The translations under genes were made by a program, and so were the position numbers. Shown here in pieces: positions 37,196 through 46,448 of a DNA stretch of 47,142 bases (position 1 is its first letter; each line of letters opens with the position of its first letter). The stretch is from the NCBI GenBank assembly GCA_036490175.1, contig DASXEJ010000021.1:1-47142 (forward strand). Direction: 5' to 3'. This DNA is from Pirellulales bacterium (GTDB lineage Bacteria; Planctomycetota; Planctomycetia; Pirellulales; JACPPG01). The notes below the pieces were generated by a model that was not told the DNA's origin, searched no databases, and worked only from the letters and a program-made list of their open reading frames with translations.

Positions 37196-38539
37196 CTAAA
37201 GAATCTCCGCCAGCGGCTGGGCCTTGCTATCGACAATACCGATCGGCCGGCCCGTGTTCGAGATGTTCTGCTTTGCCGGATCGATGTCCAGAGCCTGGCA
37301 AATCGTGGCCAACAGGTCGGGCACGGCGACCGGGCGGTCTTCGATCGTGGTGCCATCGGCGCTCGTGCGGCCGATGGCCTGGCCGCCGCGGATGCCGCCG
37401 CCTGCAAGCACAGCGCTCCAAGCATTTGGAAAGTGATCTCGCCCGCCGCCAGGATTGATCTTGGGGGTACGGCCGAATTCCCCCATCCACACGACCATGG
37501 TGCTGTCGAGCAAGCCGCCAGCGCGCAGGTCGTCCAAGAGAGCTGACCAGGCCGGATCAAGCACTCCGCTGAGTTTCTTCACGGTCTCGAAATTATCGGC
37601 GTGCGTGTCCCAACCAAGTACCTGGTTGTCGACGCCGCTGAGCGTGACCTCGACAAACGGGACGCCCCGCTCGACCAATCGACGGGCCAGCAGGCAACCC
37701 TGACCGAATTTGCTTTTGCCGTACCGCTCGCGGGTGGCATCGGTCTCTTCGCCGAGTTCGAAAGCCTTGGCAGCGGCGCTGCGCATCAAACGCACCGCCC
37801 GCCCGTAAGCCACGTCATGCGGGGCCGCGGCCGGGCGCTCGCGGATGAAGCGGTTATTCTGCGCCGTTAATAACGACAACCGGCCGTCGACCGAATCCGG
37901 GCTAACTGTGTCCGGCAGCGCGAGGTTTTCTACCTTCAGCGCCACCGGGCTGTTGCCCTCGCCGCCACTAGGGCCGTCGCCAACCACCAATGGCGCGTAG
38001 TTCGGACCTAAAAAACCTGGCCCGTAAGCGGCCGGCGCAAGCGATCTGAAAGGCGCGATGCTGACAAAGTTCGGCAGTTCGGCATCGTCGTGCCCCAACT
38101 CCTTGGCCACCAGCGATCCCAGCGTGGGATAGCGAATCGCACCCACCGGCAGATAGCCCGTGCGCACCAGCGTGGTCGCACGGCCGTGGTCCCCTTCCTT
38201 CGTGGTCATTGAGCGGATGATGGCCATGTCCGAGGCATGCGTCGCCAGGCGCGGCAAGTGTTCCGAGATCTTTACGCCCGACACCGTGGTATCGATGTCT
38301 TTGAAAGAGCCGCCGTTGTCCGTGCCCGGTTTCAGGTCGAAGGTATCCATCTGGCTCGGTCCGCCGTTCATCCACAGCAGGATGCAGCTGCCGCGCCGCT
38401 TGGCAGGATTGCTGGCCGCGGCCAGCGCTTCCAGCCAGCCCGACATTGAGCCGCCCAGCACCCCGGCCGCCGAGAGTTGCATCCAACGGCGACGATCGCT
38501 GCGCGATAGATCCGACAGGCGTTTCAACAATCGGCTCAT
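37196..38539 (-). CDS. DUF1501 protein, Tat-type leader
   Basis: A 447-residue member of DUF1501, a family with an alkaline phosphatase/sulfatase-like fold that is very abundant in planctomycetes. The N-terminus has a twin-arginine-type signal: DRRRWMQLSAAGVLGGSMSG (about 15-34), so it should be exported folded by Tat. Family motifs include CILLWMNGGPSQMDTFDLKP, SEHLPRLATHASDMAIIRSM, GDHGRATTLVRTGYLP, TLSGVDNQVLGWDTHADNFE, VVWMGEFGRTPKINPGGGRDH and AGGGIRGGQAIGRT. The D-T-F-D, G-E-F-G-R-T-P and G-R-D-H segments hold the likely metal ligands. It lies between the DUF1549/1553 gene (54 bases upstream) and the EF-hand gene. The substrate and reaction are unproven. Confidence 0.93.
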   Translation of the reverse strand: MSRLLKRLSDLSRSDRRRWMQLSAAGVLGGSMSGWLEALAAASNPAKRRGSCILLWMNGGPSQMDTFDLKPGTDNGGSFKDIDTTVSGVKISEHLPRLATHASDMAIIRSMTTKEGDHGRATTLVRTGYLPVGAIRYPTLGSLVAKELGHDDAELPNFVSIAPFRSLAPAAYGPGFLGPNYAPLVVGDGPSGGEGNSPVALKVENLALPDTVSPDSVDGRLSLLTAQNNRFIRERPAAAPHDVAYGRAVRLMRSAAAKAFELGEETDATRERYGKSKFGQGCLLARRLVERGVPFVEVTLSGVDNQVLGWDTHADNFETVKKLSGVLDPAWSALLDDLRAGGLLDSTMVVWMGEFGRTPKINPGGGRDHFPNAWSAVLAGGGIRGGQAIGRTSADGTTIEDRPVAVPDLLATICQALDIDPAKQNISNTGRPIGIVDSKAQPLAEIL

Positions 38540-38593
38540 GCTCGCCTCTCCTAGAATCAGCGGCTGAAATCGGCACGCGATTCGCCGCTGGCA

Positions 38594-40309
38594 TTAATGG
38601 TTGGACACGAACTCGGCACTATTCAAAAGCACCCACAGGACATCGGCCAAGCGGCCGTCTTGATCGCCGGCTTTGACGTAGGCCAGGAATTCGGCCGTTT
38701 CGTCATCGTGGGGCATGCGACAAAGTGTCGCTAAAAACAACATGTCCACGCGATCTTTGGCGTCGACGAAGGGGATCTTGCGGATCGCGGTCAATGTCTT
38801 GCTACGGTCGACGCTGGTCGCATCTCCCACCAGCTTGCCGTTCATCAGCGTCAGGGCTTGCACGATCGTGGTTTGATTTTCACTGCGCTGGCGCCCCTCG
38901 GCGGCAAACTTGTTGCGAAAATCAACCCGCACCGAATCGGCCTGAAACGGCTGCGCGTTGCGCGGCGGCGGCGCTTCGTAAAAGCCGGTCGCCTGCACCA
39001 GGCTGTCGAATAGCTGATCGGCCGTCATGCGGCGCACAGGCATGCAGGCGAATTGAGCGGTTAGGTCCGTGTCGGTCGTCGGAACCTTGCTCGACAACTG
39101 ATAGGCGCGCGACAGGGCAATGCCGCGCATCAACTGCTTGAGATCAAACCGCGTGGCAACAAATTGCTCGGCCAACTGCTCCACCAACTGGGCGCGGCGC
39201 GGGTCAGGCGCTTCCACGGAGTCAGCTGGTGCGGAAAGGCTCTTGCCGAAAAACTGCTCCCAGACGCGGTTCACGGCCGCGCGGGCAAAAAACGGATTTT
39301 GCGGGTGCGTCATCCATTGGGCGAGCGCCGTCCGATTGCCAATCTCGGCCCGCCACGTGGGAACGGACCCGTCCAAAAACTTTGGCAGCGCCACCATCTC
39401 GGTACCGGGGATTTTCAATCCGCCCCGATCGAAACTGTCGGACAGCGACACCATCATCATGTTGTCGGCAGTCGGCCCATCCAGGCCGCGAAAGAACGCC
39501 GCCAGCGACCAGAAATCTTCTTGCTTCCATTTGGCGAAGGGATGGTCGTGGCACTGGGCACATTCGACCTGCACGCCCAGGAAAACGCTCGATAGGCTGG
39601 CGGCGATGCTTTCTGGCTTGCGTTCGTTCGCCTGGAAGAAGGCAATCGGACTGGGAATGGTCCCGGCCAATGGTTGCCCGCGGCGCGTGGGCAGGGCGCT
39701 GCTGCTGGATACCAACTCTGCCACCAGTTGGTTGTAAGGCGTGTTGGCGGTGAAACGCAGTCGCAGCCACGACTCCAGCTCGGGTAACGAAACACGCAAC
39801 TCGGGATTCGTCCCCAACAGCAAAGTATCTCGCCAGGTGTTGGCGAAGTGGGATGCGCAGATCGCGCTCGCCAATAGTTGGTCGACAAGCCGCTCGCGCT
39901 TATTGGCCCCTGTATCGGACAGAAACTCTCTGGACTGCGCGACGGAAGGAATCTTGCCGGCCAGGTCCAGGTAGATACGTCGCATGAACTCGGCGTCGTC
40001 CGACGCAATCGTCGGTTCGATGCCCGCCGCCAACCACGCCTCGGCCAGTGCCTGGTCGATTTGCGCCGTCATCTCTCGCGCGCGGGCATGATTGGGCGCG
40101 GCCAAAGCCGTCGCCGCCGGCGGCTGAACAGCAGGCAGTGCTGCCGGTGCCTCGGCCAGACCATGCAGCGGATTTAAGCACCAGCCGTACACGCCGATGC
40201 ATAGAAATGTCAGTGCGAGGAATCGGCCGCGGCCGCGCACCGCCACAAATCTTGAAACATAACGGCCGACCCGGAATCGGGTCTGTGGGCCCTGCCATAA
40301 GAACGCCAT
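38594..40309 (-). CDS. DUF1549/DUF1553 (PSCyt2-PSD1) protein
   Basis: A 571-residue planctomycete-type protein. A hydrophobic anchor or signal lies at about 29-52 (RFLALTFLCIGVYGWCL). DUF1549 follows: FMRRIYLDLAGKIPSVAQSREFL, FANTWRDTLLLG, and a heme-like VECAQCHDHPFAKWKQEDFW with Cys250-x-x-Cys253-His254. The C-terminal DUF1553 part includes MTHPQNPFFARAAVNRVWEQFFG, RAYQLSSKVP, RRMTADQLFDSLVQATGFY and LFLATLCRMP. The lack of an N-terminal cytochrome domain makes it a short form. It is regularly paired with DUF1501 proteins, as here, 54 bases upstream of one. The CxxCH may bind heme or be structural. The function is not established. Confidence 0.92.
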   Translation of the reverse strand: MAFLWQGPQTRFRVGRYVSRFVAVRGRGRFLALTFLCIGVYGWCLNPLHGLAEAPAALPAVQPPAATALAAPNHARAREMTAQIDQALAEAWLAAGIEPTIASDDAEFMRRIYLDLAGKIPSVAQSREFLSDTGANKRERLVDQLLASAICASHFANTWRDTLLLGTNPELRVSLPELESWLRLRFTANTPYNQLVAELVSSSSALPTRRGQPLAGTIPSPIAFFQANERKPESIAASLSSVFLGVQVECAQCHDHPFAKWKQEDFWSLAAFFRGLDGPTADNMMMVSLSDSFDRGGLKIPGTEMVALPKFLDGSVPTWRAEIGNRTALAQWMTHPQNPFFARAAVNRVWEQFFGKSLSAPADSVEAPDPRRAQLVEQLAEQFVATRFDLKQLMRGIALSRAYQLSSKVPTTDTDLTAQFACMPVRRMTADQLFDSLVQATGFYEAPPPRNAQPFQADSVRVDFRNKFAAEGRQRSENQTTIVQALTLMNGKLVGDATSVDRSKTLTAIRKIPFVDAKDRVDMLFLATLCRMPHDDETAEFLAYVKAGDQDGRLADVLWVLLNSAEFVSNH

Positions 40310-40417: not shown

Positions 40418-40957
40418 CTAATAGTCGTCCACCGGCGCGATCGAGTACGGCTGCTCGGCGATCCGGCCCAGTTCGTCCAACGTGCGACGCTGCCCCACAG
40501 AGGGCCAGCCCGAGATGCCGGCCAGTTCCGGCATGACGTCCAGCAGTTGGTCGATCAGGCGCTCGGCCAGGGTGTGCATGCACGGATCCTGCGAACTCTC
40601 CAGGATCGTAGCGGCCGTTTTCATGACTTTTACCAGCGCCGCACGTGCCAGCACCGGCTGCGAAAGTTGCAGCATGGGCTCGTTCAGCAATTCGGCCACG
40701 GGCACGTCCAGCAGCTTTTGCCAGCGATACAGCTCGCTGAGCAACAGGTCGTAATTCTCGTTCTCTTGCCGGCGGACCTCGTCGGTCGACAGCAGCAGCC
40801 CTTGCCGCGCCGCCCTCAGCGATACTCCCTGTTGCGCCCGCACCTCGGCGATGCGGTGCAACGGACCACTGGTCAACAAGAGATCTCTCGCCCCGGAAAC
40901 TCGGCCATTGCTCGGCCGCCGGCAACTACAGTCGTGATCTTGATTCGGCATGACCAT
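40418..40957 (-). CDS. Helix-turn-helix-like protein
   Basis: A 179-residue cytoplasmic protein. Residues about 33-90 read like an altered XRE-type helix-turn-helix: LHRIAEVRAQQGVSLRAAAR-like helices, VRRQENENYDLLLSELYRWQ, and LLDVPVAELL, which copies the end of a Cro/CI domain. The rest is helical without a known domain. The ATG at 40957 has GAGGAAG eight to fourteen bases upstream, supporting this start. It is 108 bases upstream of the DUF1549/1553 gene on the same strand, so it could regulate the DUF1549-DUF1501-EF-hand genes or simply be co-transcribed. DNA binding is an inference. Confidence 0.7.
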   Translation of the reverse strand: MVMPNQDHDCSCRRPSNGRVSGARDLLLTSGPLHRIAEVRAQQGVSLRAARQGLLLSTDEVRRQENENYDLLLSELYRWQKLLDVPVAELLNEPMLQLSQPVLARAALVKVMKTAATILESSQDPCMHTLAERLIDQLLDVMPELAGISGWPSVGQRRTLDELGRIAEQPYSIAPVDDY

Positions 40958-41360: not shown

Positions 41361-41850
41361 TTCGGCACCTCCGTAAGCCAGCGCTCGATCGGCCTCGGCC
41401 GGGTGATTTGCCAACAGGCCTTTCCCCGCCGGGGCTCACTGGATAACGCGACGTTTGCGCACCGAGTCCGCAAAGATTTTCAAGAATGTCCGCCAGCGGC
41501 TGAGCCGACCGCCCTGCGGATCAGCCTTTCCCGGCCTTTTTTCATTGGGTGAAACGGCATTCAGGAAGCACGCCTGAATGGCGCGGCGATGCGCTTAGGG
41601 CGATTTGCCCAGCCCCCAAACTCCTCTCAGGCCGCACCGGGGAAATGTGCCAGCGTCATTGCCCGTCATACTTCCGGGCCCCATTCGACGAACCTGTCGT
41701 GACAGTCAGAATGGAACCGGCGGACGCTGGGCGACCGCCCTCAGGCGAGACGGGAATTAGCCTCACATCGATCCCGGATGAAGTACAATCGGGGCTTGCT
41801 GTCGCGATGACTGGCAGCAATTGTCACGCGCGCTCTACAGGGCCGCCCGC
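41361..41850. other. Divergent intergenic region before the ECF gene
   Basis: About 490 bases without a convincing gene. A hairpin GGCTGAGCCG/CGGATCAGCC lies at 41498-41526, followed by short T-runs. TACAAT near 41786 could be the -10 box of the sigma-factor gene, but I see no matching -35. The promoter of the zinc-ribbon gene must lie at the left end. Confidence 0.45.
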
Positions 41851-42429
41851 ATGCCCGCCACTCCGTCTGAACAAGCAACTCGGATTGTCAACGAACTCGC
41901 CGCGGGAGATCACCGCGCCGCCGAGGAGCTGATGCCGCTGGTTTACGACGAGTTTCGCGAATTGGCGGGCGCGTATTTGCGCCAAGAGACAAAGGCCCAC
42001 ACGCTGCAGCCGACGGCACTGGTACACGAGGCATATTTGCGGCTGATCGACCAGACGCGGGTCAACTGGCAAGGGCGCACGCATTTCTTCGCCGTCGGCG
42101 CGCAGGCCATGCGTCGCATACTGGTCGACCATGCCCGTGCCAGGCACCGCGACAAACGAGGCGGCGGCTGGCATCGTATCGCGCTAGACGAGCATCTGAT
42201 GGTCTCACCCGACCACGATGCCGATATACTGGCCGTCGACGAGGCGATCGATAAGCTGAACGCCATCGACGGCCGGCAGGCGCGGATCGTTGAGCTGCGT
42301 TTCTTCGGAGGTTTGACGGTCGAAGAGGTGGCCCAGGTTCTCGGCGTCTCGAAGCGCACCGTCGAAAACGAGTGGAAAATCATCCGCGCCTGGATGAGAC
42401 GAGAACTCGCCGGGGAATCCGTGCCGTGA
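41851..42429 (+). CDS. ECF-type RNA polymerase sigma factor
   Basis: A 192-residue extracytoplasmic-function sigma factor of the planctomycete/acidobacterial type. Region 2 reads ELMPLVYDEFRELAGAYLRQ and LQPTALVHEAYLRLIDQTRV...WQGRTHFFAVGAQAMRRILVDHARAR, a hallmark of this group. Region 4 is DGRQARIVELRFFGGLTVEEVAQVLGVSKRTVENEWKIIRAWMRREL with a clear helix-turn-helix. There is no anti-sigma gene; instead the Ser/Thr kinase gene overlaps its stop by four bases (GTGA). ECF factors of this type are thought to be switched by kinase phosphorylation. I start at the ATG at 41851; a TTG at 41821 would add ten residues. Confidence 0.93.
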   Translation: MPATPSEQATRIVNELAAGDHRAAEELMPLVYDEFRELAGAYLRQETKAHTLQPTALVHEAYLRLIDQTRVNWQGRTHFFAVGAQAMRRILVDHARARHRDKRGGGWHRIALDEHLMVSPDHDADILAVDEAIDKLNAIDGRQARIVELRFFGGLTVEEVAQVLGVSKRTVENEWKIIRAWMRRELAGESVP

Positions 42430-44786
42430 CGAGCGACCATTACGATCGCGCCAAGAAGCTCTTCCTCTTGGTTTGCAGCCTGGACGAATCGGCGCGGGCC
42501 GAGACCCTGGGGCGTGAATGCGGCGGCAATGCAGCGCTCCGTTCCGAGGTCGAATCTTTGCTCGCGCACCATGCCACGCAGACGATTCTTCAGGAGCCCC
42601 ACGAGCGATACGCCATCAGACCGCGTGATCCTTGGCATGTGCCGGCGACTGCCCGGCGTGCCTTCGGCGTGGTCTGGCACGACATTGTCGAACGGAAGGT
42701 TACCTATCTGGCCGGACTGTTGGCCTTGCTGTTGCTGCTGGCCGGGGGCGTTTGGTCACATTACGGGGTCGAGAATTCTCTGCGCGACGTGCTACGCGAC
42801 GAGTTACAGACCGTGCTCGACGCCGACCTGACCGCGCTGGAGCTTTGGCTGCGCGAGCAGCAAGCCGAGGCCAAACGCTGGGCCCGCCAGGAAGATGTAT
42901 ACGAGCCGATTGCCGAGTTGGTACGCCTGGCGCGCGATTCCGCAACCGCCGACGATGCCACTACCGCCTTGCGCGAGGCAACGGCCCAGGCAACGCTGCG
43001 CGAATCGCTGGCGGCGTATATCGAAGACGCCGAGGGTCGCACGGCGTACGCCGTCGTCGATCGCTCGGGGCTCGTGCTCGGTGCACGGGCCAACAACGCT
43101 ATCGGCATTCACTTGAACGCCGAGGGGATGGCCGACAATGCCTACGCCTTTGCTGGCCAGACACGCGTCGCCCGCCCCCATCCCCAAGGGTCGTTCGCAC
43201 TCGATCGCCCTGTGCGACTCGATGAGCCGATGATTTGGGTAAGCACGCCGGTGCGAAACGAAGCGGGCACGATCGTTGCCTCGCTCAATCTGGGAGTAAG
43301 CGCCGACGAACAATTCACTCGGATCCTGTCCGTGGGGCGGATCGGCAAGTCCGGCGAGACATACGCCTTCGACGAGCGGGGATGGTTTCTCTCGGATAGC
43401 CGCTTCAACGATCAGCTGAAATCGGCGGGGCTGATCCCCAACGAGCAACAGGCAAGGGCCATCTTCAACATGCAGGTGCGCGACCCTGGAGCGGACCTGA
43501 CCAAGGGCGCCAAGCTGTCGTCGCCCCAAGAGACGCTACCGCTCACCCGCGCGGCCCACCTGGCAATCGCACAGCAAGACGGATTCGATGTACACGGCTA
43601 TCGCGACTACCGCGGCGTAAAAGTCATCGGCGCCTGGAAGTGGCTGCCCGAATATGGCTTCGGTGTCGTAACCGAGGTGGATTACGCCGAGGCTTACGCA
43701 CCGTTGCGTTATCCGATCATCGCCTCGTGGTTGCCGCTGGTGGTGCTACTGATGGCCACCGGGGGGCTGGTCTACTCGGGTTATCACATTGCCCAATTGC
43801 AACGACAGATCGGCGTAGCACGCCAATTGGGCCAATACACTTTGGAAGAGAAGATCGGCGAAGGGGGCATCGGCGTCGTGTATCGCGCACGGCACGCCAT
43901 GCTCAGGCGTCCAACGGCCGTCAAGCTGCTCAAGCCCGAGCAGATGACCACCATCGCCATCGCGCGCTTCGAACGCGAGGTGCAGTTGGCCAGCCAATTG
44001 ACGCACCCCAATACCATCGAGATCTACGACTTTGGCCGCACGGCCGACGGCGTGTTTTACTACGCGATGGAGTTTTTGCCTGGCGCGTCGCTGGCCCAGT
44101 TGATTCAGATCGAAGGGGCCATTCCCCCCGCGCGGGCCGTGGCGATCCTGAAACAGATTTGCGGATCTCTGGCCGAGGCTCACGCCATCGGCCTGGTACA
44201 CCGAGACATCAAGCCCCATAACGTCATGCTCTGCGAGCGCGGTGGCCAGCCAGATTTCGTGAAGGTGCTCGACTTCGGACTGGTCAAAAGCATCGCCAGC
44301 GGAGGTGACGATCCGACGTTGACCGCGTCGACGGCGCTTACGGGCACGCCTTTGTACATGGCGCCAGAACGTCTTAAGGACCCCACGGTAAATGACCCGC
44401 GCTCGGATCTCTATTCGTTGGGGGCGGTCGGCTACAACCTGCTGACAGGCCGCAGTATTTTCCACTGTGCCAGCGATTTGGACGTGCTCTTTCACGTCAT
44501 GAACATCGTGCCGCCGCCGCCACAGACCTTTAATCCGGCGATTCCCCCGGCACTCAACCAATTGATCGTCGCCTGCTTGGCCAAAGACCCAAAGGATCGC
44601 CCGCAAACGGCGCTCGATATTCTGCACGCGCTGGACGAGATTCCAGGGCTCGGCACGTGGACCGAGGCCGATGCGCGCACCTGGTGGAAAGAGAAAGGCG
44701 CGGCCGTGCTCCAATTGCGCCGCAAATCGGTGGCCGACACCGTGGACTTCGAATCCCATGCCACGGCGATCAAGGACAAAGCATGA
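42426..44786 (+). CDS. Cache-domain membrane Ser/Thr protein kinase
   Basis: A 786-residue sensor kinase. A short N-terminal module (DHYDRAKKLFLLVCSLDESARAETL... LRSEVESLLAHH) resembles the leader common to planctomycete kinases next to ECF factors. Helix one spans about 93-110, an extracytoplasmic double-Cache-like sensor about 115-430 (AYAVVDRSGLVLGARAN, IGKSGETYAFDERGWFLSDS), helix two about 430-455, and a cytoplasmic kinase about 471-745. Kinase residues are intact: GEGGIGVVYRA loop, Lys500 in AVKLLK, HRDIKPHNV, DFG and APE. An RD-type kinase should be active. The start is the GTG at 42426 inside GTGA, overlapping the sigma-factor stop. Placing the kinase after the sensor rather than before it is unusual. 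It probably phosphorylates the sigma factor on ligand binding. Confidence 0.93.
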   Translation: MTSDHYDRAKKLFLLVCSLDESARAETLGRECGGNAALRSEVESLLAHHATQTILQEPHERYAIRPRDPWHVPATARRAFGVVWHDIVERKVTYLAGLLALLLLLAGGVWSHYGVENSLRDVLRDELQTVLDADLTALELWLREQQAEAKRWARQEDVYEPIAELVRLARDSATADDATTALREATAQATLRESLAAYIEDAEGRTAYAVVDRSGLVLGARANNAIGIHLNAEGMADNAYAFAGQTRVARPHPQGSFALDRPVRLDEPMIWVSTPVRNEAGTIVASLNLGVSADEQFTRILSVGRIGKSGETYAFDERGWFLSDSRFNDQLKSAGLIPNEQQARAIFNMQVRDPGADLTKGAKLSSPQETLPLTRAAHLAIAQQDGFDVHGYRDYRGVKVIGAWKWLPEYGFGVVTEVDYAEAYAPLRYPIIASWLPLVVLLMATGGLVYSGYHIAQLQRQIGVARQLGQYTLEEKIGEGGIGVVYRARHAMLRRPTAVKLLKPEQMTTIAIARFEREVQLASQLTHPNTIEIYDFGRTADGVFYYAMEFLPGASLAQLIQIEGAIPPARAVAILKQICGSLAEAHAIGLVHRDIKPHNVMLCERGGQPDFVKVLDFGLVKSIASGGDDPTLTASTALTGTPLYMAPERLKDPTVNDPRSDLYSLGAVGYNLLTGRSIFHCASDLDVLFHVMNIVPPPPQTFNPAIPPALNQLIVACLAKDPKDRPQTALDILHALDEIPGLGTWTEADARTWWKEKGAAVLQLRRKSVADTVDFESHATAIKDKA

Positions 44787-44855: not shown

Positions 44856-46214
44856 TTAGCCGGTGAATAGCGGCTCGATGACCTGGCCCTGGTTCAGGCG
44901 GATCGGCCGGTTCATGCGGTCGCGCACTTCGGCCTCGCTGCCGACCCCCAGCGCGCTATAGATCGTCGCCCCCAGGTCCGAGGGATAGTATTCCCGCGAG
45001 GCGGGAAAGGCTGCGATCTTGTCGGACTTGCCAAGCACTTGCCCGCCGCGCACGCCGCCACCGGCCAACAGTGCGAAGAATACTCCGGCCCAATGATCGC
45101 GGCCGTCGGGCGTAAACGAGGCCGTGCCGACGTTGCCTCCCAGTTTCGGAGTGCGTGAGAATTCTCCCACCATCACGACCAACGTATCGTCCCATAGGCC
45201 GCGGGCTGAAAGATCGTCGAACAGCGTGGCCAGGGCCTGATCCAGCGGCGGCAGCAACCGTTCTTTGAGCTGCTTACAGTTGTCGTTATGCGTATCCCAA
45301 TTATTCATGCGTCCCATATTGGCCTGCACGATCGGGACACCCGCCTCGACCAGCCGACGTGCCAACAACAGCGACTGGCCGAACGCATGCCGGCCATATC
45401 GATCGCGCAACTCTCCCGGTTCCTGATCGATGGCAAAAGCCTGCCCGACTTTGCCCGAGGTCAGCACATCAAAAGCCTGTTGTTGCAAGTCGGCAAAGGG
45501 TCCACGATCAGTCCGTGCCACCAATCCGGCGCGCTGCTGTTCGATCTCGGCTAGCAAGGACTGCCGCTGCGCAAGGCGCTCGACCGAGAGACCCACGGGC
45601 AGGCTTGTCAGTTCGACTTTGAACTTTGGATCGTTGGGATCTTGCGTGACGTGCCACGGGTCGTGCCGGGGACCGAGCCAACCGGCGTCCTGGCCAGAGA
45701 AACCGTAGCCGTTATTCAAGTAGGTGGGCAGCATCACGCCATTCGGGATGCCGTCATTGCGGGGCCGCAGAAAGTCGAGCCCCGACGCATAGCAGGGCCA
45801 ATCAAAACGCGAGGCCATGTGCGTGGCACCGGGGGGCATCTTGTCGATGCCTGTCAGCAACATGTGCGTAGCGTGTTCGTGGCTGGGCAAACCGTGAGTC
45901 ATCGAGCGAATGATGGCGTAACGATCGGCCCGCGCGGCCAACAGCGGCAAATGCTCGCAAATCTGGATGCCCGGCACCGCAGTCGAGATGGGCTGGAAAC
46001 TGCCGCGGACCTCGGCCGGGGCGTCGGGCTTCATATCGAAAGTGTCGATATGGCTGGGCGCGCCGGTCAAGAAGACCAGGATGACGCTCTTGGCTTTGCC
46101 ACTGGTGACAGACGTCGCGCCGGTTGCAGCCTGGGCGCGACGCGCCAACAGCGACGGCAACCCCATGCCCAGCAATCCGCAATAGCCGACCTGCAACAGC
46201 TCGCGCCGATTCAT
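44856..46214 (-). CDS. DUF1501 protein, second copy, Tat-type leader
   Basis: A 452-residue DUF1501 protein, related to the one at 37196 but not a near copy. The N-terminus MNRRELLQVGYCGLLGMGLPSLLARRAQA is a Tat signal (R-R-x-L-L) with cleavage near AQA-AT. Family segments are SVILVFLTGAPSHIDTFDMKP, EHLPLLAARADRYAIIRSMTHGLPSHEHATH, FGQSLLLARRLVEAGVPIVQANMG, NWDTHNDNC, LVVMVGEFSRTPKLGGNVG, PDGRDHWAGVFFALLAGGGVRGGQVLGKS. It has an added His-rich segment (GLPSHEHATHMLL). The ATG at 46214 opens the Tat signal; a TTG at 46253 is less likely. Unlike the other copy it has no DUF1549/1553 neighbour here. The substrate is unknown. Confidence 0.93.
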   Translation of the reverse strand: MNRRELLQVGYCGLLGMGLPSLLARRAQAATGATSVTSGKAKSVILVFLTGAPSHIDTFDMKPDAPAEVRGSFQPISTAVPGIQICEHLPLLAARADRYAIIRSMTHGLPSHEHATHMLLTGIDKMPPGATHMASRFDWPCYASGLDFLRPRNDGIPNGVMLPTYLNNGYGFSGQDAGWLGPRHDPWHVTQDPNDPKFKVELTSLPVGLSVERLAQRQSLLAEIEQQRAGLVARTDRGPFADLQQQAFDVLTSGKVGQAFAIDQEPGELRDRYGRHAFGQSLLLARRLVEAGVPIVQANMGRMNNWDTHNDNCKQLKERLLPPLDQALATLFDDLSARGLWDDTLVVMVGEFSRTPKLGGNVGTASFTPDGRDHWAGVFFALLAGGGVRGGQVLGKSDKIAAFPASREYYPSDLGATIYSALGVGSEAEVRDRMNRPIRLNQGQVIEPLFTG

Positions 46215-46448
46215 ACCGATCGCGTGCGCATGCGTAGTAGGAAAAGGTGGCAACGTTCGGCTCCGTTCGGGCGGGATCGGCGGGGAGCAAGACAGGTGCA
46301 GGACCCATGTGAACCTACCAGGAACACATCAGCCAATCAACATGCGTTGCGACGCGCAATTGTCAGCCATTTCCCTCTCGAACCGGAGTAGGCGGCCCGA
46401 TCGCCACGAAGAAATTGTGCGGGGTGCTTCACCGGGGGATAGGCCGCG

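Follow-up and report, generated by a model that had tools for sequence, protein, structure and literature searches.

The question of how a Ser/Thr kinase picks out its sigma factor from the dozens in a single cell is raised by a gene pair in a 47,142-nucleotide stretch of DNA (the window) from a Pirellulales bacterium, whose genome yielded 51 sigma-region-4 matches. The gene of an ECF-type sigma factor (41851..42429, forward strand; 192 amino acids) is followed there by that of a receptor Ser/Thr kinase (42426..44786, forward strand; GTG start; 786 amino acids). The nearest named relatives of the pair were found in Planctomycetaceae, Planctomycetia and Pirellulales MAGs.

Organisation of the locus

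The sigma factor reading frame runs from an ATG at 41851 to a TGA at 42427-42429, with an alternative in-frame TTG start at 41821. As the initial annotation had stated, the sigma stop and the kinase start have GTGA in common (42426..42429, forward strand), and this overlap is kept in relatives. Junctions were compared in 16 independent pairs of a sigma factor and a kinase with a double-Cache (dCache) sensor; an RTGA overlap was found in 14, an 8-base overlap in one and a short gap in one. A chance overlap was ruled out, as 14/16 pairs keep RTGA. This conservation argues for matched production of the two proteins, which are probably translationally coupled. An overlap of four bases is an ordinary operon feature, however, and the earlier wording "translationally fused" was too strong for a junction that is otherwise real.

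No anti-sigma gene was detected with Pfam among the six ORFs neighbouring the pair, which agrees with the earlier report that none was present. The sequence TACAAT was observed at 41784-41789 (forward strand), just 5' of the sigma start; it is identical at two related loci (L077 and L079) and reads TACACT at L128 and TAGAAT at L080. By sequence it resembles a housekeeping -10 element, which would make the pair not self-controlled.

A small divergent gene (40418..40957, reverse strand; 179 amino acids), with an XRE-like HTH by eye, was considered as a possible third member. Its product gave no Pfam match and no convincing NCBIfam match. The gene is also divergent to the pair at L077, L080, L128, L213 and L214, and a second copy lies elsewhere in the window genome and in several others. 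It is no more than a candidate for a dedicated partner, because the family occurs in 46/57 genomes of the order and often does not lie near such pairs. Planctomycete-type DUF1501 genes flank the region (37196-40309 and 44856-46253, reverse strand), one of them adjoining a DUF1549/DUF1553 gene.

The sigma factor

The sigma factor matched PF07638 (E 4.6e-64) and TIGR02999 (E 3.7e-66). Its sigma2.2 motif is LQPTALVHEAY, in which QPTA, with T55, is present and the acidic DxxD is absent. In EcfP (STTA) and EcfK (QATE) the Thr in third place is the residue that the adjoining kinase phosphorylates, and it stands in for the acidic contacts made in ordinary ECFs (PMC8103513, PMC8999054 and PMC13147305). 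The Thr55 codon (42013..42015, forward strand) marks the position phosphorylated in those two proteins (PMC13147305 and PMC8103513), and Thr was present at the equivalent position in all 15 readable partner sigma factors. A putative second phosphosite is Ser119 in the sigma2-sigma4 linker (codon 42205..42207, forward strand), by comparison with the linker sites described for EcfK in PMC13147305; the position is mostly Ser/Thr across partner sigma factors, its register to EcfK being approximate. The same paper states that an EcfK T51A mutant retained function, so T55 may not be the sole or main switch.

Judged from the Thr motif, the Ser/Thr kinase gene found next to it and the lack of an anti-sigma gene beside it, the pair is probably of the ECF43 kind, the models matched being PF07638/TIGR02999. 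ECF43-type sigma/kinase signalling is a known kind.

The kinase and its double-Cache sensor

The catalytic domain lies at the C-terminus (43836..44612, forward strand), where a Pkinase match was obtained at amino acids 471-729 (E 1.5e-48) and the kinase fold was confirmed by fold search. K500, E518, HRD 592-594, N599 and DFG 616-618 were invariant across 57 homologues, and the claim that every key residue is in place was thus borne out. Among related loci, L084 / L141 show a shift of the kinase reading frame immediately ahead of the glycine loop, caused by either an assembly error or a true frameshift.

The kinase was modelled using AlphaFold2 with the 57 homologues. In the model, three N-terminal helices (amino acids 3-52, pLDDT 90-95) are followed by a loose linker and by a membrane helix that continues as part of the sensor; the kinase fold comes after a second membrane helix. 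The first transmembrane helix was located at 42699..42758 (about amino acids 92-111), the extracytoplasmic sensor at 42759..43697 (about amino acids 112-424) and the second transmembrane helix at 43713..43775 (about amino acids 430-450), all on the forward strand. A dCache_1 match at amino acids 125-416 (E 3.9e-6) scored 27 bits, below the Pfam curated cut-off of 45; the model was detected in 55/57 homologues at E <= 0.01, the best value being 1.8e-16. Structure prediction of the sensor alone, a check proposed in the initial annotation, gave a pLDDT of 96 and two PAS-like modules preceded by a long N-terminal helix, which is the double-Cache layout; the top PDB fold matches were double-Cache sensors, including PctA, DctB, Mlp24 and PscC. 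The sensor is therefore predicted to be a double Cache domain between two membrane helices, as had been proposed.

Residues of the proximal module are strongly conserved. The amino-acid/AI-2 pocket of PctA consists of R126, W128, Y144, D146 and D173 (PMC7584622), and no R-x-W-Y was seen on reading the sequence of the distal module. An amino-acid/AI-2 ligand class was rejected on that reading.

The N-terminal domain and the adjacent sigma factor

Kinases with a dCache sensor occur widely, in Planctomycetota as well as in other phyla, and the majority lack an adjacent sigma factor; the Cache domain was accordingly rejected as the mark of the pairing. The feature that tracks the sigma factor is the N-terminal three-helix domain (42426..42590, forward strand; amino acids 1-55), noted in the initial annotation simply as helices, for which there is no Pfam model and which we propose as a sigma-coupling module.

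Two sets of dCache kinases were compared. The first was assembled from the genus together with 392 genomes of the phylum, and the second comprised 80 named loci in GTDB genomes, which were found by an alignment scan, while a single-protein contig scan found none. In the first set a sigma gene lay directly upstream of all 12 kinases with a strong domain and of 0/44 without it; among four weak copies, L066 has a sigma gene downstream only and L072, L074 and L075 have none. In the second, a sigma gene accompanied 9/10 domain-bearing kinases (the exception being L135) and 0/70 without the domain. With the five domain loci common to both sets counted once, 16 of the 17 dCache kinases with a clear domain have a sigma gene directly upstream, compared with none of about 100 without it, a group in which some loci are common to the two sets and a few have fewer than 300 upstream bases (Fisher 16/1 vs 0/100, P about 1e-18, with 100 a round figure and related sequences counted as independent). 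The suggestion that gene overlap and Cache domain co-occur was thus not upheld, although the sigma/dCache-kinase pairing itself is conserved in relatives. Both kinds of dCache kinase, with and without the domain, are present in a single genome (G001).

A reverse search was run on 40 relatives with the domain alone. A sigma gene of the same group lay directly upstream in 27/30 loci examined, and all 30 carry kinases. Kinase-free proteins bearing the domain were sought and none was obtained; two candidates (L219 and L220) were broken reading frames of kinases. Across three genomes (G000, G001 and G003) the domain was present in 10/10 Thr-type sigma/kinase pairs vs 0/13 acidic-type pairs, and the remaining sigma factors had no kinase in the stretch examined. 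As the domain is almost confined to kinases with a sigma factor next door, it probably links receptor to sigma. Counting against such a role are L135, with a clear domain and no sigma gene nearby, and L072, L074 and L075, with an eroded domain and no sigma gene. In the tree the last three lie among the sigma-coupled kinases, as would be expected if loss of the sigma factor is followed by decay of the domain.

Relatives of the domain and possible exchange of kinase bodies

A domain profile built from dCache kinases only gave no match in Pfam. Against the PDB its best match was to residues 7-57 of 9EED (E 7.8e-8; next match 0.075), a structure of residues 1-364 of PknS, the proven EcfK kinase. 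On this profile evidence the domain is a homologue of the helices at the N-terminus of PknS. According to the available part of the 9EED paper, the first 81 residues of PknS are absent from the crystal density and predicted as helices; no tested function for these helices was found in that part. The domain may already have been described in the survey of ECF43 kinases by Iyer et al. 2020.

In a catalytic-domain tree the sigma-coupled dCache kinases and the sigma-less ones fell into one group (support 100/99), and the classical domain-bearing kinases from the same genomes lay elsewhere. In a sensor-plus-kinase tree the coupled dCache kinases clustered and 88 uncoupled ones split off (support 100). 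The coupled dCache kinases may thus have a single origin, and because the tree permits this, the co-occurrence may partly mirror shared ancestry.

Genome G408 (L213 and L256) has a sigma factor that is closest to those of the window's group, the divergent gene and a similar N-terminal domain, the last on a kinase body with no Cache sensor and many hydrophobic segments. Distances of domain and sigma factor, corrected for the kinase domain, gave a partial r of 0.69 in the dCache set and 0.31 in the classical set, which is supportive only, 55 residues being few and relatedness being partly removed. Being found on unrelated kinase bodies, the domain looks like a portable sigma-coupling module. A wider form of this proposal is that it is a portable sigma-docking module defining Thr-type (ECF43-like) pairs across phyla, in which sigma factor and module stay matched and receptor bodies vary, double-Cache receptors with a distal kinase domain being among them; we consider the odds on this to be even.

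Comparison with known systems

The closest counterpart is EcfK/PknS of Xanthomonas citri (ECF43), which likewise has a Thr-motif sigma factor adjoining a membrane Ser/Thr kinase with a homologous N-terminal helical domain, and for which direct phosphorylation of the sigma factor was demonstrated (PMC13147305). PknS has the order N-terminal domain, kinase, membrane, sensor, whereas in the window kinase, which crosses the membrane twice, the double-Cache sensor precedes a C-terminal catalytic domain. In EcfP/PknT of Vibrio parahaemolyticus (ECF43) an inactive sigma factor is phosphorylated on a sigma2.2 Thr by the adjacent kinase (PMC8999054); it is likened to the window pair by description rather than sequence, and its signal (polymyxin) differs. 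The sigma-less dCache receptor Ser/Thr kinases of Planctomycetota and other phyla share the sensor, membrane layout and catalytic-domain lineage of the window kinase but lack both N-terminal domain and sigma partner. Planctomycete sigma factors of the ECF59, ECF61, ECF62 and ECF217 type also adjoin Ser/Thr kinases (PMC8999054); the acidic-motif pairs, putatively of these types, differ in having an acidic sigma2.2 and kinases without the domain.

The initial annotation had regarded a Cache sensor built into the kinase as a specific version of kinase-controlled ECF signalling. This needs qualifying: a survey of 2016 (PMC4822843) already lists Ser/Thr kinases that carry Cache-type sensors, and PMC13147305, citing Iyer et al. 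2020, notes that the extracytoplasmic domains of ECF43-linked kinases are varied.

Proposed pathway and alternatives

The reading that we favour, at a probability of about two in three, is, largely as the initial annotation had suggested, a one-step pathway from membrane to transcription; it would be of the ECF43 (EcfP/PknT, EcfK/PknS) kind, in which the N-terminal domain couples a double-Cache receptor to the sigma factor. The sigma factor would be inactive when made, because its RNA-polymerase-contacting sigma2.2 carries Q-P-T-A where other ECFs are acidic. The kinase is predicted to cross the membrane twice, with the N-terminal helices and catalytic domain inside and the double Cache outside. 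A signal at the sensor would switch the kinase, which would phosphorylate T55 of the sigma factor and perhaps also S119 of the linker, and the added charge would allow the sigma factor to join RNA polymerase. The three-helix domain would couple receptor to sigma, most likely by docking the sigma factor, and the four-base overlap would have the two proteins produced together. The conserved pairing, the retained Thr and the lack of a neighbouring anti-sigma gene make kinase-to-sigma signalling a well-supported inference.

The domain might instead be an anti-sigma-like inhibitor that holds the sigma factor at the membrane until phosphorylation releases it, making the kinase both jailer and switch. 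It is small, helical, always N-terminal and made right after the sigma factor (GTGA overlap), and it tracks the sigma factor rather than the kinase type. A sigma2.2 already without acidic contacts needs no second lock, however, all domain-bearing proteins seen are kinases and none a kinase-free anti-sigma, and the domain is unlike known anti-sigma Pfam models; we regard this as unlikely. We give no better chance to a domain that never touches the sigma factor, regulates the kinase (for example by promoting dimers) and is found beside the sigma factor because the pair is inherited as a unit. In its favour, the coupled dCache kinases may all go back to one origin, in which case the counts would overstate independent events. 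Against it, the domain is carried by separate kinase lineages and by both architectures, lying either next to the catalytic domain or about 475 residues from it; sigma-less relatives (L072, L074, L075 and L144) have lost it or keep it in eroded form; and its distances track the sigma factor beyond the kinase domain.

An ordinary ECF43-type pair whose sensor is triggered by physical stress or through a periplasmic protein, and not by a small molecule, is also improbable, if slightly less so. Direct binding of small molecules has been described for many dCache domains, and this, with the well-formed double Cache and its conserved proximal module, argues for a small molecule; the PctA-type motif unseen in the sensor (sequence reading against PMC7584622) points the other way.

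A short domain that marks Thr-type pairs, is not found in the other ECF/kinase pairs and has a homologous counterpart at the N-terminus of PknS makes kinase-sigma recognition directly testable. If the domain docks the sigma factor, it would help to predict which kinase controls which sigma factor, and it would provide a component with which membrane receptors could be rewired to transcription in strains used in the laboratory.
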